Translations under genes and position numbers: made by a program | Shown: positions 2 through 8,449 of the stretch, piece after piece | Layout: the number at the start of each line of letters is the position of its first letter | Numbering within the stretch: the first letter of the stretch is position 1 | Notes under the pieces: generated by a model | What the model was told of the DNA's origin: nothing | The model's input: only the letters and a program-made list of their open reading frames with translations | Databases searched by the model: none | Origin: a bacterium | GTDB taxonomy: Bacteria; Blakebacterota; Blakebacteria; Blakebacterales; Blakebacteraceae | Length of the DNA: 11,598 nt | Direction: 5' to 3' | Assembly (NCBI GenBank): GCA_025774615.1 | Contig: JALGVQ010000146.1 | Span: 1 to 11,598, forward strand

Positions 2-625
2 TCCGAGTTCCGGGGGAAGTTCACGCATACGGTTGAGGATCAGACTACCCGTCTGGTCAAACTCATCGACGACCTGCTCGATTACAGCAGGGAGACCAGG
101 CTGCATCTCTCTGATCTTGACCTCAATCTGCAGCTCCATCTGGCGGTGGGTGTCTTCCGCGACATGATGGTCAGCAACCGGATCGCGGTGTATGAAGATT
201 ACCGGTCGACCCGGAAGATCAAGGGAGATCCGGACAAACTTGAACAGGTCTTCTTCAACCTGATCAAGAATGCCATCGAGGCACAGGGTGAAGGGGGCGC
301 GATCGTGATTCTGACCGTGGATGATGGCCCGAGTGTACTCACGGTTGTGGCTGATGCAGGAGCAGGTGTCGACCCATCGACCAGGGAGAGCCTGTTCGAA
401 CCCTTTGTGACCACGAAATCGAAGGGGACCGGACTCGGCCTGGCTATCGCCGGAAAGGTCGTGATTGCCCACGGAGGTGAGATCGAACTCTTTTCACCCC
501 TGGAGGAGGTCGACACCGGTCTTCTGGAGCAGGTCCGGGTCACCCTTGGTGACCACTGGCCAGGGAACCGGCAGGGAAGCTGTTTCATGGTCAGGTTGCC
601 TGCGGTAACGGAGAGCGAGAACTGA
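2..625 (+). CDS. Sensor histidine kinase, C-terminal part (5' end outside window)
   Basis: The open frame enters from the left edge and ends at TGA 623-625. The first visible residues (about 1-30, ending in LVKLIDDLLDYS) match the second helix of a HisKA dimerisation domain, so the phospho-accepting His lies just upstream of the window. The ATP-binding HATPase_c domain follows with all its boxes: the N box (FFNLIKNAIEA), a G1 box reading DAGAGV, the F box (FEPFVTTK) and the G2 box GTGLGLAI. An acidic insertion lies between the G2 region and the last strand. The family autophosphorylates on His and passes the phosphate to a cognate receiver. Only 4 bases separate it from the sigma-54 activator gene downstream, so the two probably form an operon and a cognate pair. 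The input domain and any membrane segments cannot be seen. The kinase assignment is firm; the stimulus is unknown. Confidence 0.93.
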   Translation, partial: SEFRGKFTHTVEDQTTRLVKLIDDLLDYSRETRLHLSDLDLNLQLHLAVGVFRDMMVSNRIAVYEDYRSTRKIKGDPDKLEQVFFNLIKNAIEAQGEGGAIVILTVDDGPSVLTVVADAGAGVDPSTRESLFEPFVTTKSKGTGLGLAIAGKVVIAHGGEIELFSPLEEVDTGLLEQVRVTLGDHWPGNRQGSCFMVRLPAVTESEN

Positions 626-629
626 AGAT

Positions 630-2009
630 ATGGCCCGGATCCTGGCGATAGATGATGAGAAGAGCATCCTCGATTCCTATCGGATGGCTCTTGAAGATAT
701 GCATCAGGTCGAATTCGCGGAGAATGGCGAAGATGGCCTGAAATCTCTCGATGAATCGCTCTTCGATGTTGTGCTGCTCGATATCTCGATGCCCGGATTA
801 TCCGGGTTGGAAGTGCTGAAAGAGATCAATCGTCATGATCACGACTGCTCCATCATCATGGTGACGGTACACAAGGATGTGGAGACGATCGTCGAGGCGA
901 TGAAGTCGGGGGCAGATGACTATCTCACGAAACCATTCAAGGTCACCGAGCTGCGACATGCTGTGGATCGTGCTCTCAAGGTCATCGAACTGGAGAGGAA
1001 GAACCGCTCTCTTGAAGCGAGCCTGATGGCAACCGGGAATCGACAGGAGATCGTCTACCTCTCCCGATCGATGGAGGAAGTGTTCCAGGACCTCAGGAAG
1101 AGCGCGGTGAGCGACTCCTCCATCTTTCTCATGGGTGAGTCGGGGACCGGCAAGGAACTTGCCGCGCACTTCGTGCATGAACATTCCAACCGGTCTGAAG
1201 GACCGATCGTCACCGTCAACTGCGCGGCGATTCCGGATACCCTGCTCGAATCGGAGCTCTTCGGACACGAGAAGGGGGCCTTCAGTGGAGCCGGCGAACG
1301 GAAGATCGGGAAATTCGAACTCGCCCACAGGGGAACCATCTTCCTGGATGAGATAGGACTGCTCCCGATGGATCTGCAGGCAAAACTGCTCCGTACGATC
1401 GAGACCAGGGTGATCGAACGGGTGGGGGGAACCAAACCGATCCACCTTGATGTACGCTGGCTTGCGGCCACTAATCGTGATCCCGCCGTCCTGGTCGAAG
1501 AGGGGATCTTCCGTGAAGATCTCTTCTTCCGCCTGAATGTGATATCAATGAGCCTGCCGCCCCTTCGGGAGAGGCTGGATGATTTGCCGCTGCTCGCGAA
1601 ACACTTCCTGGATCAGTTCGGGCGTGATATGAAAAAGCCCCCTCTCACACTGAGTGAGGAGATTCTGGAAGTCTTTCAGGTGTATCCCTGGCCGGGCAAC
1701 GTCAGGGAACTCCGGAATCTGATCGAGCGGTTGATGGTGCTCGAACCCGGACCGGAAATCTCGGTGGAGCAGCTGCCGACGAGGATGCTTGAAGCGTATA
1801 GTGAGGCAGTGGGTGTCGATATCACTGACGTGACCGATTCGCGGTACAAGGAAGCTATCGAAGAGTTCAGGCGGAACTTCATCATTCGGGCGATGCGGGC
1901 CGCCAATGGGAATCAGACTCATGCTGCCCGTTCCCTGGGGCTCCATCGGAACACACTTCTCCACCATCTCAGGGAGATGCACATCGAATCGGAGGAATAT
2001 GGCCTCTGA
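630..2009 (+). CDS. NtrC-family sigma-54-dependent response regulator
   Basis: This 459-residue protein has the three-domain layout of the NtrC/ZraR/AtoC family. The receiver (about 1-120) has acidic pair D8/D9, phospho-acceptor D51, T79 and K101, all intact. The AAA+ domain (about 140-370) has Walker A GESGTGKE at 169-176, the sigma-54-contacting loop at 216-221 reading GAFSGA instead of GAFTGA, and Walker B FLDE ending at E241. The C-terminal Fis-type helix-turn-helix lies at about 426-450. The family hydrolyses ATP to remodel RNA polymerase-sigma-54 closed complexes after phosphorylation and oligomerisation. Four bases separate its start from the kinase stop. Because a -24/-12 promoter lies about 275 bp downstream of its stop, the adjacent pseudo-receiver unit is the obvious candidate target (inference). 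The Thr-to-Ser change in the loop is conservative and probably leaves it active. Confidence 0.97.
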   Translation: MARILAIDDEKSILDSYRMALEDMHQVEFAENGEDGLKSLDESLFDVVLLDISMPGLSGLEVLKEINRHDHDCSIIMVTVHKDVETIVEAMKSGADDYLTKPFKVTELRHAVDRALKVIELERKNRSLEASLMATGNRQEIVYLSRSMEEVFQDLRKSAVSDSSIFLMGESGTGKELAAHFVHEHSNRSEGPIVTVNCAAIPDTLLESELFGHEKGAFSGAGERKIGKFELAHRGTIFLDEIGLLPMDLQAKLLRTIETRVIERVGGTKPIHLDVRWLAATNRDPAVLVEEGIFREDLFFRLNVISMSLPPLRERLDDLPLLAKHFLDQFGRDMKKPPLTLSEEILEVFQVYPWPGNVRELRNLIERLMVLEPGPEISVEQLPTRMLEAYSEAVGVDITDVTDSRYKEAIEEFRRNFIIRAMRAANGNQTHAARSLGLHRNTLLHHLREMHIESEEYGL

Positions 2010-2137
2010 TGGTTTGTGCGATCGAGCTGACTGACCGCATGATAGATCGGGCACCTCCAGTAACCTGTTGTATATCATGATGTTATAGTATTTTTAATAT
2101 GAGTGATAGTTCCTGTCAGATACTCCTCAGGATGTTA

Positions 2138-2225
2138 TTGCACAATATTTCGTGCAAAATATAAATTGCCGGATCCTCCGCACTTCATTCTGGAGCGTCA
2201 AACACAGAAATATTTCCTGTAAATT
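2138..2225. promoter_or_regulatory. Two related dyad elements, candidate upstream activator sites
   Basis: The first element (2138-2157) is TTGCAC, 8 bases, GTGCAA: perfect 6-bp arms. The second (2203-2225) centres on the 10-bp palindrome GAAATATTTC (2207-2216), flanked by ACA and TGT with one extra base. Both contain ATATTTC-N-TG-N-AAA, with copies offset by 65 bp (about six helical turns). They lie about 100 to 170 bp before the predicted start of the -24/-12 promoter, the usual place for activator-binding sites of NtrC-type proteins. That the neighbouring activator binds them is inference. Confidence 0.5.
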
Positions 2226-2283
2226 GTTTATTACCAGATGATTACACCTGTTGATTGCCGTAGACACATCCAGTCGGAGTATC

Positions 2284-2299
2284 TGGCATGCCTCTTGCA
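2284..2299 (+). promoter_or_regulatory. Sigma-54 (-24/-12) promoter
   Basis: The sequence is CTGGCATGCCTCTTGCA. It has GG at 2285-2286 (-24) and GC at 2297-2298 (-12) with exactly ten bases between, and matches the TGGCAC-N5-TTGCA consensus at all but one position (T for C at 2289). The predicted transcript starts near 2310, about 50 bases before the receiver ATG at 2361. The NtrC-type activator is encoded just upstream. Confidence 0.75.
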
Positions 2300-2360
2300 A
2301 TACACATCAGGCCTGAGTCGCTCTGAAACCGAGTCTACCGAGGCTGAGGAGAGTATTGGC

Positions 2361-2798
2361 ATGGTGCTTGTTCTGGAGAGTGATGATGCACTGCGAGAGG
2401 CGGTTGTCGGGGCTCTCGAAGTTGCAGTCGCCACAATAAGCGCGCGGACCGGGCGTGAAGCGCTCCGGCTCCTGGAGGAATCGTCTCCCTCCATCGTGCT
2501 TCTGAATGTACAGATACGGGATATGGACGGAGTTGAATTCCTCCGGCAGGTCCGAATGCGCCTGCCCGATACAAAGGTCATCGTCACATCCGATTCTGGA
2601 GATTATCGACTGGTGCAACGGGTCATTGAGCTCGGTGTCGGTGATTTCCTCGAAAAACCGTACGAGATCGAGGACCTCTTTCACTCCCTCGATAATTCCG
2701 TTCGGGGGATCAGTTCACGTCTCGATGATCGGGTGCTGGCAGCTCGGTACCACGAGAAGAGCCGGCTCCGCCGGCAGACACTCCTCGTGGCATCATGA
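2361..2798 (+). CDS. Receiver-only protein with degenerate phosphorylation site (pseudo-receiver)
   Basis: This 145-residue protein consists of one CheY-like receiver domain (about 1-118) and a basic tail of about 27 residues with no recognisable output domain. I chose ATG 2361 because GAGGAG lies 8-9 bases before it, the receiver fold begins exactly there (MVLVLES), and an earlier in-frame ATG at 2238 would place the sigma-54 promoter inside the gene. The phospho-acceptor Asp is replaced by Asn: N49 in IVLLNVQIRDMDG, codon AAT at 2505-2507. The acidic pair is E6/S7 instead of Asp-Asp. The switch residue (T76 or S77) and K99 in the EKPYE motif are kept. Receivers of this kind usually cannot be phosphorylated normally and act by protein contact or another signal. 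It is followed after 7 bases by a small gene probably co-translated with it. Its partner is unknown. Confidence 0.88.
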   Translation: MVLVLESDDALREAVVGALEVAVATISARTGREALRLLEESSPSIVLLNVQIRDMDGVEFLRQVRMRLPDTKVIVTSDSGDYRLVQRVIELGVGDFLEKPYEIEDLFHSLDNSVRGISSRLDDRVLAARYHEKSRLRRQTLLVAS

Positions 2799-2805
2799 GG
2801 ATCAC

Positions 2806-3099
2806 ATGCGCATGACGGTGAGACCATGTCGGGAAGAAAAGAGCACAAACGTGGAACAGAGATTTCGACAGGAACTACTGGGGGAAGTGGGAAGGGAGCT
2901 TGAAACCATCAACAACTGGGCTCAGAACATGCTGAGAGGATGTGATCCGGATGATCTCAGGAGGGACTCCGGAGAAACCATCGTCTGCGAGATAGCGGCC
3001 CTCCATAAGTATATCGCGGATTCACAATGCCGGACGCATGCTTCTGTCGAGGTGTCCGGTTCTCGCACCGGGCCGTTCTGTCCGGCCGCCGAGAGATAA
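2806..3099 (+). CDS. Small protein resembling a lone HisKA dimerisation hairpin without the phospho-His
   Basis: A 97-residue hypothetical protein. ATG 2806 follows the receiver stop by 7 bases with GAGG 5 bases upstream. ATG 2812 and GTG 2851 (residue 16) are alternative starts. Residues 18-72 read like a histidine-kinase DHp hairpin. FRQELLGEVGRELETI aligns with the FLANVSHELRTP-type H box, with R30 at the His position. A charged turn (RGCDPDD) follows, then a second helix, ETIVCEIAALHKYIAD, comparable to the ETI..E..RLL.LI.D helix of kinases. There is no ATP-binding domain, signal peptide or membrane segment. The tail (73-97) is Ser/Gly/Pro-rich and its last codons lie inside a strong inverted repeat. 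It could dimerise, or dock on the pseudo-receiver or a kinase (inference). It could also be an eroded kinase fragment. The family resemblance is from reading only. Confidence 0.6.
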   Translation: MRMTVRPCREEKSTNVEQRFRQELLGEVGRELETINNWAQNMLRGCDPDDLRRDSGETIVCEIAALHKYIADSQCRTHASVEVSGSRTGPFCPAAER

Positions 3100-3121
3100 C
3101 CACTGATGGCGGCCGGACAGA
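3077..3121. terminator. 14-bp inverted repeat, likely transcription terminator or RNA-stabilising hairpin
   Basis: A perfect inverted repeat has arms TCTGTCCGGCCGCC (3077-3090) and GGCGGCCGGACAGA (3108-3121) around a 17-base loop. It overlaps the stop codon (3097-3099) of the small DHp-like gene and sits between that gene and the end of the minus-strand tRNA-Leu gene. It is followed on the plus strand by only a weak T-rich stretch, so it may work in either direction or with Rho. Confidence 0.6.
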
Positions 3122-3170
3122 TATATTCATTCAGGTACTCTGATGTGGGGAGATGCCACAGGAGAGTAAA

Positions 3171-3257
3171 TGGTGCCGGAGGCCGGACTCGAACCGGCAC
3201 AGTGTTGCCACCGGGGGATTTTGAGTCCCCTGCGTCTACCAATTTCGCCACTCCGGC
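3171..3257 (-). tRNA. tRNA-Leu (anticodon CAA)
   Basis: Read on the minus strand, this is an 87-nt class II tRNA with CCA encoded in the genome. The acceptor stem is GCCGGAG/CTCCGGC with discriminator A. The D arm contains GGTAGACGC. The anticodon stem GGGGA/TCCCC encloses loop CTCAAAA, so the anticodon is CAA (reads UUG). A long variable arm is followed by the T arm GCCGG-TTCGAGT-CCGGC. The long variable arm together with the CAA anticodon identifies leucine. It is transcribed away from the hybrid kinase gene, from a strong promoter just upstream. No integrase gene or duplicated tRNA 3' end is visible in the window. Confidence 0.97.
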
Positions 3258-3273
3258 TGGGGACGACCGCTAC

Positions 3274-3301
3274 ATAATAGGCCGGTTGGCGGATCTGTCA
3301 A
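3274..3301 (-). promoter_or_regulatory. Sigma-70 type promoter for tRNA-Leu
   Basis: On the minus strand, TTGACA (plus 3296-3301) is followed after 16 bases by TATTAT (plus 3274-3279). The predicted start is near 3267, leaving a leader of about 10 bases before the mature tRNA 5' end at 3257. Confidence 0.8.
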
Positions 3302-3362
3302 AGTCTGGTGACAGAATATCGCAACCAGCAATCGGGATACATGCAACGATTGAGGTGACTGG

Positions 3363-4877
3363 ATGATGCCTGATAACGAGCAAGGATCAGCGTCAATCCA
3401 GGACGGCAGCGAGCCGATGTCCCTGGTGCTCGACCAGCTGCCCATTGGTGTCGCTCTGGTGGATGACGCCGGCGAACTCCTCTATCTCAATCCCGCCTTC
3501 CGAGAGATCAGTGATGCTCCCCAATTCACCAGTGCGATTCAGAAGCTGTACGACGGTGAACCGGTTAATGATCTGCTCTCCCTGACCAGAGCCGACCAGA
3601 ACGATCGTGAGGTCGAACATATATACCGGCTCCGTGGTTTCCACCTTGAAGGATCGGGTAACGGCAGTTCCAGATCGATGATGCTGGTCGAAGACATCAC
3701 CGAATCGTACCGGCTCAAGATGAACCTGAGGCGCGCCCAGCGGATGGAGAGCGTGGGCAGCATGGCCAGTGCTGTGGCCCATGACTTCAACAATATCCTG
3801 ACCGTGATCCTGCAGAGTGTGCATCTGCTGAAGCAGCAACTGCCTCAGGAGCGTGCATATCTCGATCCTCTCGATGTGATCGAGGGGACTACGTTGAATG
3901 CCGGCGAACTGGCACAACAGCTCCTGACTCTCTCAAAACCCAGGATCGTGGACTGGAAAGATCTCGACCTGAACGCGGTGATCAGGGATGCGCTGCCGAT
4001 CCTGGAGCGTGTGCTGCGGGAGGGTATCAGGCTGGAATGTGAACTTGAAGACGACCTCTGGAGTGTATGCTCCGACCCTTCCCAGATCCTGCATATCCTC
4101 CTGAACCTGTGTATCAATGCCCAGGAAGCCATGGAGGGGCAGGGAAAGATCACCATTTCCACACGGAAGATCGACCGGAGCAGGGTCCCACAGGTGGAAG
4201 GCGGTCTGGCAACGGGTCATTACGTCCTGCTCTCTGTTCTGGACGAGGGGCCTGGCATACCGCCTGAGCTGGCCGACCGGGTCTTCGATCCCTTCTTCAC
4301 CACCAAGGAGATGGGAACCGGGCTCGGTCTCTCGACCGCGTACACGTTCGCGGCCGAACAGGGCGGCACGGTAACGCTCTATTCTGAAGACGGCCATGGT
4401 ACAAGGATCAATCTGTACCTCAAGGCTGAACCGCGTCCGCCGGTAATCTCGGAAGTGGATGACGATCTGGTGGCAGGTGAGGACCTGACCGGTAGCGAAA
4501 CACTCCTTCTGGTTGATGATGAGTGGCTCGTGCTTGATCTGGCCCGCGAGATCCTCTCTCAGCAGGGATATTCCATCATAACCGCCTCATCCGGTGAGGA
4601 GGCGGTCGAGATCATCAGATCATCTGAGGAACGGATTCCTCTCGTGATACTCGACATGGCGATGCCGGGAATGAACGGACTGGAAACGTTGCGGGCCATC
4701 CGGGTCCATGAACCGGGGATCCGTGCCATCATCTCCAGCGGTTTCCACGCCACGCAGAAAATGCACAAGGTGCTGGATGCAGAAGTTGATGTATTCGTCA
4801 ACAAACCATATGAGATCGACCATCTGGTGCGAGAGGTCAGGCATCTCCTCGATGCCGGATCGATCCTCCCCGACTGA
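3363..4877 (+). CDS. Soluble hybrid histidine kinase (PAS-HisKA-HATPase-receiver)
   Basis: A 504-residue protein with no signal peptide or membrane segment, so it should act in the cytoplasm. A PAS-like domain (about 18-115, LPIGVALVDDAGELLYLNPAF, ending MMLVEDITE) is followed by a HisKA domain whose H box is AVAHDFNNIL with H140. The HATPase domain has N252 in the N box, a G1 box DEGPGIP at 294-300, FDPFFTTK, and GTGLGL at 318-323. A C-terminal receiver (about 379-495) has D385/D386, phospho-acceptor D431, S458/S459 and K481. All catalytic residues are intact. HDFNN kinases of this type commonly carry a fused receiver. GAGGTG at 3352-3357 suits either ATG 3363 or the adjacent ATG 3366, the latter with better spacing. 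No clear promoter was found in 3302-3362. No separate output protein follows, so the phosphate may pass to another protein or the receiver may regulate the kinase itself. Confidence 0.95.
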   Translation: MMPDNEQGSASIQDGSEPMSLVLDQLPIGVALVDDAGELLYLNPAFREISDAPQFTSAIQKLYDGEPVNDLLSLTRADQNDREVEHIYRLRGFHLEGSGNGSSRSMMLVEDITESYRLKMNLRRAQRMESVGSMASAVAHDFNNILTVILQSVHLLKQQLPQERAYLDPLDVIEGTTLNAGELAQQLLTLSKPRIVDWKDLDLNAVIRDALPILERVLREGIRLECELEDDLWSVCSDPSQILHILLNLCINAQEAMEGQGKITISTRKIDRSRVPQVEGGLATGHYVLLSVLDEGPGIPPELADRVFDPFFTTKEMGTGLGLSTAYTFAAEQGGTVTLYSEDGHGTRINLYLKAEPRPPVISEVDDDLVAGEDLTGSETLLLVDDEWLVLDLAREILSQQGYSIITASSGEEAVEIIRSSEERIPLVILDMAMPGMNGLETLRAIRVHEPGIRAIISSGFHATQKMHKVLDAEVDVFVNKPYEIDHLVREVRHLLDAGSILPD

Positions 4878-6140: not shown

Positions 6141-8449
6141 TCAGTTCGGTGGAAGAGGGGGTATGGGTGGAATCCTTCTCCAGAAATCACGGTTCAGCCG
6201 TGGATCGTGTACCGTGCATTCTTCGGTCGGCTGATTCGTTATCAGGAAGATCTCGGTGAACCGGTCGGGACAGGTCGGCAGCGCGAGTTTGTAATCGGGG
6301 TCCTCCGCGGTATAGCTCGAAGCGCACAGTTCCACCTCCACGATCCCCGGCGGCCGCACCCAGTCATCCTTCGGCAGACCACGTTCCTCATCCTTGTAGA
6401 GATCTCTGATGAAACGGGCCCAGACCGGCATCGCCATCACGGCACCGGATGGATCGGGTAATCCGGTCACCGGGCGTCCACCCGGTATTCGCATGGTCAT
6501 CCGGTCGTTGAACCCGATCCAGACCCCGGCCACGATGTGCGGTGTGTAACCGTAGAACCAGGCATCGCTCCAGTCGTTGGTAGTACCGGTTTTGCCGCCT
6601 GCCGGAACGTCAACGTAATAGACGCTGCGAGCCAATCCCGCGGTCCCGCCCTCTTCCAGCACCCCCTTCATGAGATCGACGACGAGGTAGGCAAGAGCAG
6701 GTTCGAGCACTCTGGAGAGTTTCACCGGTGGTGCTTCGATCTCCCGTCCGAATCGATCCCGCACATATCTGACCATCCGTGGTTCAGCCCGGGTGCCGAG
6801 GTTGGCAAAGGTCGTGAAGGCGCTGACCATTTCGATCAGAAGAACTTCACTCGATCCGATCGCCAGGGAGGGGAAGGGGCGGAGGGGAGTCGTGATCCCG
6901 AACATCTTCGCGTAATCCACCAGGATGCCGGGATTCATCGAACCGTGGCGACCGAGGCCGCCTCCAGATGCGCCAGACACGATTCGGGCAGCCACCAGGT
7001 TGATCGAGCGTCGCAGAGCATTGCGTATTGTGAGCGGTTCACTGAAGGTGCCGTAGTAGTTCTCCGGTGTCCAGCGCGAGCCGTCGGGCTGGAAGAGAGT
7101 GATCGGTTGATTAAAGACACGCGTGGCCGCTGTGTAGCCATTGTCGAGGGCAGCCGTGTAGAGGAACGGTTTGAATGAGGACCCGGCCTGCCTCAGCGCC
7201 TGGGTGGCGTTGTTGAACTGGTATTCCTGACCATCGCGAGTACGTCACCGTTTTTGGGGTCCATGGCGACGAAGGCCCCCTGGAGGGTATAGCGCCTTCG
7301 CAGTGCCTCTATGGACGATGTGTCGGGCTCGACACCTTCGGGAGTGTTGTCGAGGATCTCCTGGATGGCGGGCTGGATGATCCACTCATCGTAGCCCTTC
7401 TGCTTGTCCGCGAGCATGGTGAGCAGATGTTTCTCCGCCAGGGCCTGGATACCGGAGTCGAGGGTGGTCTGGATCGTTGCTCCATCTCTATAGAGGATAT
7501 CGGCGCCATATTTCCTCTCAAGGTCCTGTCTGATCCACTCGACGAAATAGGGGGCGGCCGGGACCTCATCCTCCCGCTCCACGAACTCCAGCGGCTTGCG
7601 GGCCAGGGTGTCCACGGCTGAATGCTCCAGATAGCCTGCCGCCACCATGTAATCGAGCACCCTGTTCCTGCGCTGCAGCGCCAGATCGGGCCTGTTGTAG
7701 TAGTAATACGGTCCCTGCAGGATGCCGACCAGGTAGGCACTCTCCAGCAGGTCAAGAGCCTCGACATCCTTGTCGAAGTAGTTCTGGGCTGCCTGCTGGA
7801 TACCGTACGCGCCATTGGCGAAATAGACCTCATTCAGGAACATCGAAAGGAGTTCGTCCTTGGAGTAATTGCTTTCAAGGGCGATGGCGGTAAGCTGTTC
7901 CCTCAGTTTTCTGGTAATGCTGTCCTCGGTACCGACGCTGGCGAACAGGTTCCGGGCCAGCTGCTGGGTGATTGTGCTGGCGCCCGAGATGATCTCCATG
8001 TTCCGGATATTGTCGAGCATCGCCGCTGCCAGTCGACGCAGGTTGACTCCCCAATGGTCATAGAAATCACGGTCTTCAGTTGCCAGGAGCGCTTCTTTGA
8101 GGTGCCGGGGGATCTGGTTGAGCGTTACCGGTACCCGCTGCTGTGTGTAGAATTCCTTCAGGGTGAGTCCATTGGCGTCATACACGCGGGTGATGAGGCG
8201 CTGTTCGAATCGCTCGAGTTCCGAAGGAGTCGGCAGATTGCGGGAGAGTGCATAGAGGATGAACGCGGATATCATACCTGCCAGAAGGCTGAGAACCGTG
8301 ACCTGGATCAGGAACTTCCGCCCCCATTTCCGGGGGAGCCAGTCCTTGAGATTGTCATACCGGATGAACGCCCACACGGCGGAAAAAACGCGCTTCACCA
8401 GGCGCTTCATCCGGGCCATGATTCCCTGAGATCCGGTGCTATCGGGCAC
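6141..8449 (-). pseudogene. mrcA: Class A penicillin-binding protein (PBP1A type), frame broken between the catalytic domains
   Basis: Read from GTG 8449 (AAGGAA about 8 bases upstream), the product has a basic cytoplasmic N-terminus, one membrane helix (about 46-68), and a GT51 glycosyltransferase domain with catalytic E125 in LLATEDRDFYDHWG and GASTITQQ at 156-163. The first frame ends at TGA 7193-7195 after GDVLAMVRNTSS. The other frame continues without a stop from about 7223 with YQFNNATQALRQAGSSFKPF and has every transpeptidase motif: S-S-F-K, S-I-N and K-T-G-T-T. It ends at 6141. Families of this kind polymerise and cross-link peptidoglycan. The whole region would give about 770 residues, normal for PBP1A. 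The break lies at about 7222-7235, where relatives have VLAMVGG plus several residues before F-N-x-A-T-Q-A. Here the GG and some following residues are missing, so a small out-of-frame deletion fits better than a one-base error. A sequencing or assembly error remains possible. Confidence 0.85.

Follow-up and report, generated by a model that had tools for sequence, protein, structure and literature searches.

Gene order at the locus and in related genomes

The window, i.e. the whole stretch of DNA analysed, is an entire contig of 11,598 bases (G000:C211) from the draft metagenome genome G000, which comprises 3.30 Mb in 324 contigs and is 82% complete. It starts with the 3' part of a kinase gene, followed by the gene of an NtrC-type regulator, a gap of 351 bases, a pseudo-receiver gene and the gene of a small protein. 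The following features were assigned.

2-625, plus strand: sensor histidine kinase, C-terminal part (Pfam HATPase_c and HisKA); remainder on G000:C277
630-2009, plus strand: NtrC-type response regulator (bacterial enhancer-binding protein) with receiver, AAA+ domain with GAFSGA and Fis-type helix with HRNTLLHHLREM
2035-2054, plus strand: predicted upstream activator site 1 (weaker), CCGCATGATAGATCGGGCAC, at -249 from the TGG of the promoter and 103 bp before site 2
2138-2157, plus strand: predicted upstream activator site 2 (strong), TTGCACAATATTTCGTGCAA, a 20-bp palindrome TTGCAC-N8-GTGCAA at -146 from the TGG
2220-2232, minus strand: possible IHF/HU bending site AATAAACAATTTA, near -64, one mismatch to WATCAANNNNTTR
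2283-2299, plus strand: sigma-54 promoter CTGGCATGCCTCTTGCA, -24 GG at 2285-2286 and -12 GC at 2297-2298 with ten bases between
2309-2310, plus strand: transcription start expected from sigma-54 promoter geometry, 11-12 bases past the -12 GC
2346-2351, plus strand: ribosome binding site GAGGAG, read from the sequence, 9 bases before the ATG
2361-2798, plus strand: pseudo-receiver, a stand-alone receiver domain (Pfam Response_reg; alignment)
2806-3099, plus strand: small protein, probably helical, no family match; ortholog in G002 39% identical over 64 amino acids
3077-3121, plus strand: strong RNA hairpin ending the unit (z -4.7), no U-tract

The comparison set consisted of four genomes of the phylum (G000 to G003), all draft metagenome assemblies, in which the activator/pseudo-receiver gene pair occurs at three loci only. 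Orthologs of the activator and the pseudo-receiver are adjacent in G001 (JALGWK010000069.1; 83% and 88% identity, respectively) and in G002 (JAGLTZ010000379.1, labelled Candidatus Latescibacterota; 72% and 63%). No ortholog of the pair was detected in G003, which is 63% complete, and a contig search beyond the phylum gave no orthologs, only two remote matches with 28-30% identity to part of the receiver. In G001, contig C220 is unbroken across the locus and the kinase gene is whole. The order there is a cyclase gene (CHASE2), a sigma-54 promoter, a B12/radical SAM gene, an SBP_bac_5-like lipoprotein gene, the kinase, the activator and the promoter of the gap. The G000 counterpart of the upstream part is contig C277, which ends within the same kinase gene; as the contig break lies inside this gene, we infer from synteny with G001 that C277 adjoins the window. 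The B12/radical SAM gene is whole in G000 and frameshifted in G001, where it occupies two frames (L106 9745-11158, minus strand).

The kinase has a HAMP-HisKA-HATPase architecture. A kinase and an NtrC-type activator directly upstream of the gap had been proposed by the first-pass annotation, and the Pfam matches of the kinase and the domains of the regulator bear this out. The activator displays the hallmarks of a response-regulator-type enhancer-binding protein, namely a receiver Asp, Walker A and B motifs, GAF(T/S)GA and a Fis-type helix. The acceptor Asp, the Walker motifs, GAFSGA and the HRNTL recognition helix are intact in all three orthologs, and GAFSGA is among the variants listed as compatible with activation (PMC4641369). 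With TIGR01818, the NtrC/NR(I) equivalog model, the activator scored 407 bits, below the curated cut-off of 558.6, and it is therefore not NtrC itself. Used as a query against G000, it gave about 41 matches; most of these were receivers or further enhancer-binding proteins, of which the genome encodes dozens.

Alignment of the three pseudo-receiver orthologs revealed a phospho-acceptor Asp replaced by Asn (LLN) in every case. Judged from this alignment, the protein cannot be phosphorylated in the normal way. The gene of the small protein is mostly deleted in G001, so this protein is not essential to the unit. Beyond the pseudo-receiver unit comes a tRNA-Leu(CAA) gene in convergent orientation, and the hairpin at 3077-3121 lies between the two; G001 retains this hairpin, with base changes in each arm. 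Further downstream in the window, a penicillin-binding protein gene (6141-8449, minus strand) apparently runs in two frames near 7190-7240, due either to a frameshift or to an assembly error. Tandem related lipoprotein-like genes at the contig end (9917-11236 and 11290-11598) contain similar stretches (e.g. GGPGxGPGE), suggesting a recent duplication.

The sigma-54 promoter and upstream sites of the gap

The promoter sequence CTGGCATGCCTCTTGCA fits the consensus TGGCAYRN4TTGCW without a mismatch. The first-pass annotation had correctly recognized GG and GC ten bases apart, but placed the element at 2284-2299 instead of 2283-2299 and counted one mismatch to the consensus. The pattern was absent from all 300 dinucleotide shuffles of the window. 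In the whole G000 genome it occurs eight times versus three times for a reversed-pattern control, so the motif alone is no proof, and conservation and position carry the weight. All specified bases are retained in the orthologous gaps of G001 (TGGCACGTCTCTTGC) and G002 (TGGCATGGGTATTGC); the -24/-12 element, for which conservation among relatives had been anticipated, is kept beside the gene pair at all three loci. TGGCAYG-N4-TTGC is invariant in the three gaps, reading TGGCATG-N4-TTGC (2284-2298) in the window. In a three-way alignment, the proportion of invariant columns was 73% over 2284-2298, compared to 28% over the whole gap and 13% in 2158-2283, which makes 2284-2298 the most conserved 15-base block of the gap. 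Over the four genomes there were 31 matches to the consensus versus 11 to its reversed control. Of 30 matches examined, 22 sit 30-130 nt before the start of an open reading frame, compared to 17% of positions drawn at random from this DNA. RpoN is encoded in G000 (PF04552, E 8e-63, contig G000:C85). Because of these counts, the position before open reading frames, the conservation and the presence of RpoN, it is very likely that the consensus element serves as a promoter in this lineage, and the copy in the window is a strong instance. Transcripts from sigma-54 promoters depend on RpoN and begin some 12 bases beyond the -12 GC; a start at 2309-2310 is predicted here. A scan for sigma-70-type promoters across 1900-3400 returned no promoter-like site on the plus strand.

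Upstream of the promoter the gap harbors palindromic sequences related to a predicted 20-bp site with the consensus YTGCACWATNNATYGTGCAR. A matrix to score them was trained only outside the three gaps, on the two operon promoters described below and on a promoter at G001:C362. With this gap-free matrix the best site of each gap was located at -146, -147 and -148 from the TGG in the window and its relatives, and none of 1000 shuffles of each gap reached its score. The window site 103 bp further upstream is weak, with several mismatches to the consensus; it scored 14.4, a value reached by 4 of 1000 shuffles, and its G001 counterpart at -250 scored 17.1 (2 of 1000 shuffles). G002 has no good 20-bp partner at 103 bp from the main site, and a related N7-spaced dyad, TATGCACACAGATTGTGCATA, is present about 92 bp upstream. 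Taken together, the palindromes have the properties of predicted enhancers: they lie about 100-250 bp upstream, are common to sigma-54 promoters that would be co-regulated, and are conserved.

The arrangement differs from that put forward in the first-pass annotation, which had described two dyads 65 bp apart. A 31-nt direct repeat with this spacing does exist (2144-2174 and 2209-2239, 74% identical), and its first copy falls within the true dyad at 2138-2157. The second copy is no site of that kind and no partner of the first: a site matrix gave 27.3 bits for the first copy and -8.2 bits for the second, and 2209-2239 was rejected as an activator site. The actual partner is the sequence at 2035-2054, 103 bp upstream, outside the region to which the dyads had been assigned. 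Conservation of the dyads, which was likewise anticipated, holds for the main site at all three loci. G000 and G001 share 80% identity over 2203-2222, and part of the second dyad region may belong to an IHF-like site. The nearest IHF match to the promoter in the window is 2220-2232, with one mismatch; at the corresponding position G001 fits the IHF consensus exactly (TATCAATGAGTTA), and no match was seen in G002. An IHF site had formerly been placed at 2251-2256. The letters TTGATT are present there, but there is no IHF consensus match within one mismatch, and this candidate was discarded. Two genes of the HU/IHF family occur in G000, as a family assignment that does not distinguish HU from IHF.

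Recurrence of the sites at the kinase/activator operon and elsewhere

The exact pattern TGCAC-N8-GTGCA occurs only twice in the 3.3-Mb G000 genome, once in the gap of the window and once at G000:C277:4284-4301, before the kinase/activator operon; the reversed-pattern control occurs once. Chance alone would produce a pattern of ten specified bases a few times in a genome, so what stands out is the location of the two copies. Ahead of the sigma-54 promoter of the operon we found CTGCACAATACGTCGTGCAG and CTGCACTATGTATCATGCAG in G000, and CTGCACAATATATTGTGCAA and GTGCCCAATCCGTCGTGCAC in G001. The spacing of the pairs is almost constant over five promoters, with 103 bp in the window, 103 in the G001 gap, 102 at the G000 operon, 101 at the G001 operon and 103 at G001:C362. 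The last pair (L144 2601-2814) is followed by TGGCCCGATCATTGCT, upstream of a prepilin-like gene, and the sigma-54 element at this position has one mismatch. This gene is a possible third target of the activator. Its ortholog is absent from G000, and the G002 contig ends at the gene start. Every instance found has its sites 95-250 bp ahead of a sigma-54 element. Searches of G000 for a wider regulon, with degenerate patterns allowing two mismatches, returned counts close to those of controls beyond the known sites, and no ortholog of the radical SAM gene was found in G002 when sites before that gene were sought.

A second activator, present in the same three genomes (G000:C191, G001:C279 and G002:C22; L108, L109 and L110), carries a different recognition helix, SRVNLHQKINEY. 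In each of the three genomes it is followed by a sigma-54 promoter with a dyad near -128, CTGTTAA-N6-TTAACAG, whose first base differs in G002. The gene after this promoter, judging from the start of its protein, is presumably PilC/GspF-like. A second activator with a distinct helix and a distinct dyad of its own supports the view that dyad and neighbouring activator form a matched pair.

Proposed circuit, alternative explanations and known systems

The results strongly support the core of the earlier proposal, a sigma-54 promoter that drives the pseudo-receiver unit under the control of the adjacent NtrC-type activator. We consider it likely that this promoter is enhancer-dependent, with paired sites, and that the activator works at the promoter of the pseudo-receiver unit as well as at that of its own operon. 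In the mechanism we propose, the upstream operon would make the B12/radical SAM protein, the solute-binding lipoprotein, the kinase and the activator, and the kinase would phosphorylate the activator. Phosphorylated activator would bind two palindromic 20-bp sites that lie 150-250 bp upstream with a spacing of about 103 bp, and DNA looping would bring it to the sigma-54 polymerase at 2283-2299, with transcription starting near 2309-2310. The same site pair and a second sigma-54 promoter ahead of the activator's own operon would provide positive autoregulation, while the activator would simultaneously drive the pseudo-receiver and, in two of the three genomes, the small helical protein. The sequences show the promoter and its conservation, the sites with their pairing and near-exclusive location, and an intact activator and RpoN. 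We infer that the adjacent activator is the protein that binds, that it acts by looping and that transcription begins at the predicted point; any action of the pseudo-receiver on the kinase is hypothetical.

The principal alternative would be that the sigma-54 promoter is real, while another enhancer-binding protein binds the paired sites and the adjacent activator controls something else. The many related proteins found with the activator query and the additional G001 site pair before the prepilin-like gene, distant from the activator, are in line with this idea. We nevertheless regard it as improbable, since exact sites in G000 occur only at the two promoters flanking the adjacent activator, gene and sites are retained together in three genomes, and the other activator has its own distinct dyad beside its own target promoter. 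Still less probable, and in our estimate very unlikely, is binding of the palindromes by an unrelated dimeric repressor or other regulator, with the sigma-54 promoter responding to an activator that is bound elsewhere or acts from solution. Palindromes of 20 bp are a generic mark of many dimeric regulators, and those found here are distant from the promoter. However, paired sites 95-250 bp upstream on roughly one helical face are too far away for simple repression and typical of enhancers. RNTL is also part of the recognition helix of NtrC. The TGCAC half-site is similar to the one found in NtrC sites (PMC4987338). A chance origin of the motifs in an AT-rich gap, with transcription of the unit due to read-through or to a housekeeping promoter that escaped notice, could draw on the few genomic matches to the exact promoter pattern that chance would produce (eight versus three in the control). 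The threefold conservation of the promoter, of the main site and of the distance between them, together with the location of the sites and the result of the sigma-70-type scan, makes this explanation barely credible.

An enhancer-dependent promoter controlled by the adjacent activator thus remains our preferred reading. Of the circuit drawn in the first-pass annotation, it retains the promoter and the main site, both kept at all three loci, and adds the sites shared with the activator's operon promoter, while the 65-bp pairing and the position of IHF had to be given up. A feedback of the unit on the kinase had also been envisaged. In a transcriptional sense feedback gains support, as the same sites before the kinase/activator operon imply self-activation, and it is very likely that the activator increases the production of the kinase, of the solute-binding protein and of itself. 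That the pseudo-receiver acts on the kinase is a proposal, for which docking as a decoy appears plausible. A fully coupled circuit, in which the activator amplifies the kinase operon and also makes a non-phosphorylatable receiver that docks to the kinase or competes with the activator as a built-in delayed brake, a decoy under shared enhancers closing the positive loop, seems doubtful to us.

The closest parallel is NtrC (NR(I)) of enteric bacteria, for example at the glnA enhancers, with which the system shares the receiver, the AAA+ domain and the Fis-type helix as well as paired upstream palindromes with TGCAC half-sites and a sigma-54 promoter. NtrC sites read TGCACC(A/T)4TGGTGCA (PMC4987338), whereas the half-sites found here are 8 rather than 7 bases apart and lack the inner C/G, and the pair is about 103 bp apart; the spacing is N8 instead of that of the NtrC-type TGCACC-N5-GGTGCA (TGCAC-N7-GTGCA) in every site except one G002 dyad. 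The predicted targets also differ, being the activator's own operon and the pseudo-receiver instead of nitrogen genes. DVU3305 of Desulfovibrio vulgaris is likewise a GAFSGA response regulator controlling an adjacent operon and its own (PMC4641369). Its own operon is without a sigma-54 promoter, whereas the operon described here has one with paired sites, and the targets are different. In NmpRSTU of Myxococcus xanthus, too, an NtrC-like regulator occurs together with clustered kinases and a further receiver protein, NmpT, for which a role as phosphate sink has been proposed (PMC6211767). NmpT takes phosphate, whereas the pseudo-receiver has no acceptor Asp, and the reported target of NmpR is pilR, not its own extra receiver (PMC6211767). 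The parts of the predicted circuit are of a familiar kind, and its wiring can be read directly from the sequence.

Gene regulation in this candidate phylum is little known, and at this locus a promoter, an enhancer code and a likely activator become readable from sequence. The similar layout at the second activator, with the promoter of the PilC-like gene and its own dyad, suggests that activators could be assigned to their sites throughout the lineage. If the pseudo-receiver does act on the kinase, the unit would cleanly illustrate how a pathway can produce, when required, a decoy receiver that modulates it.
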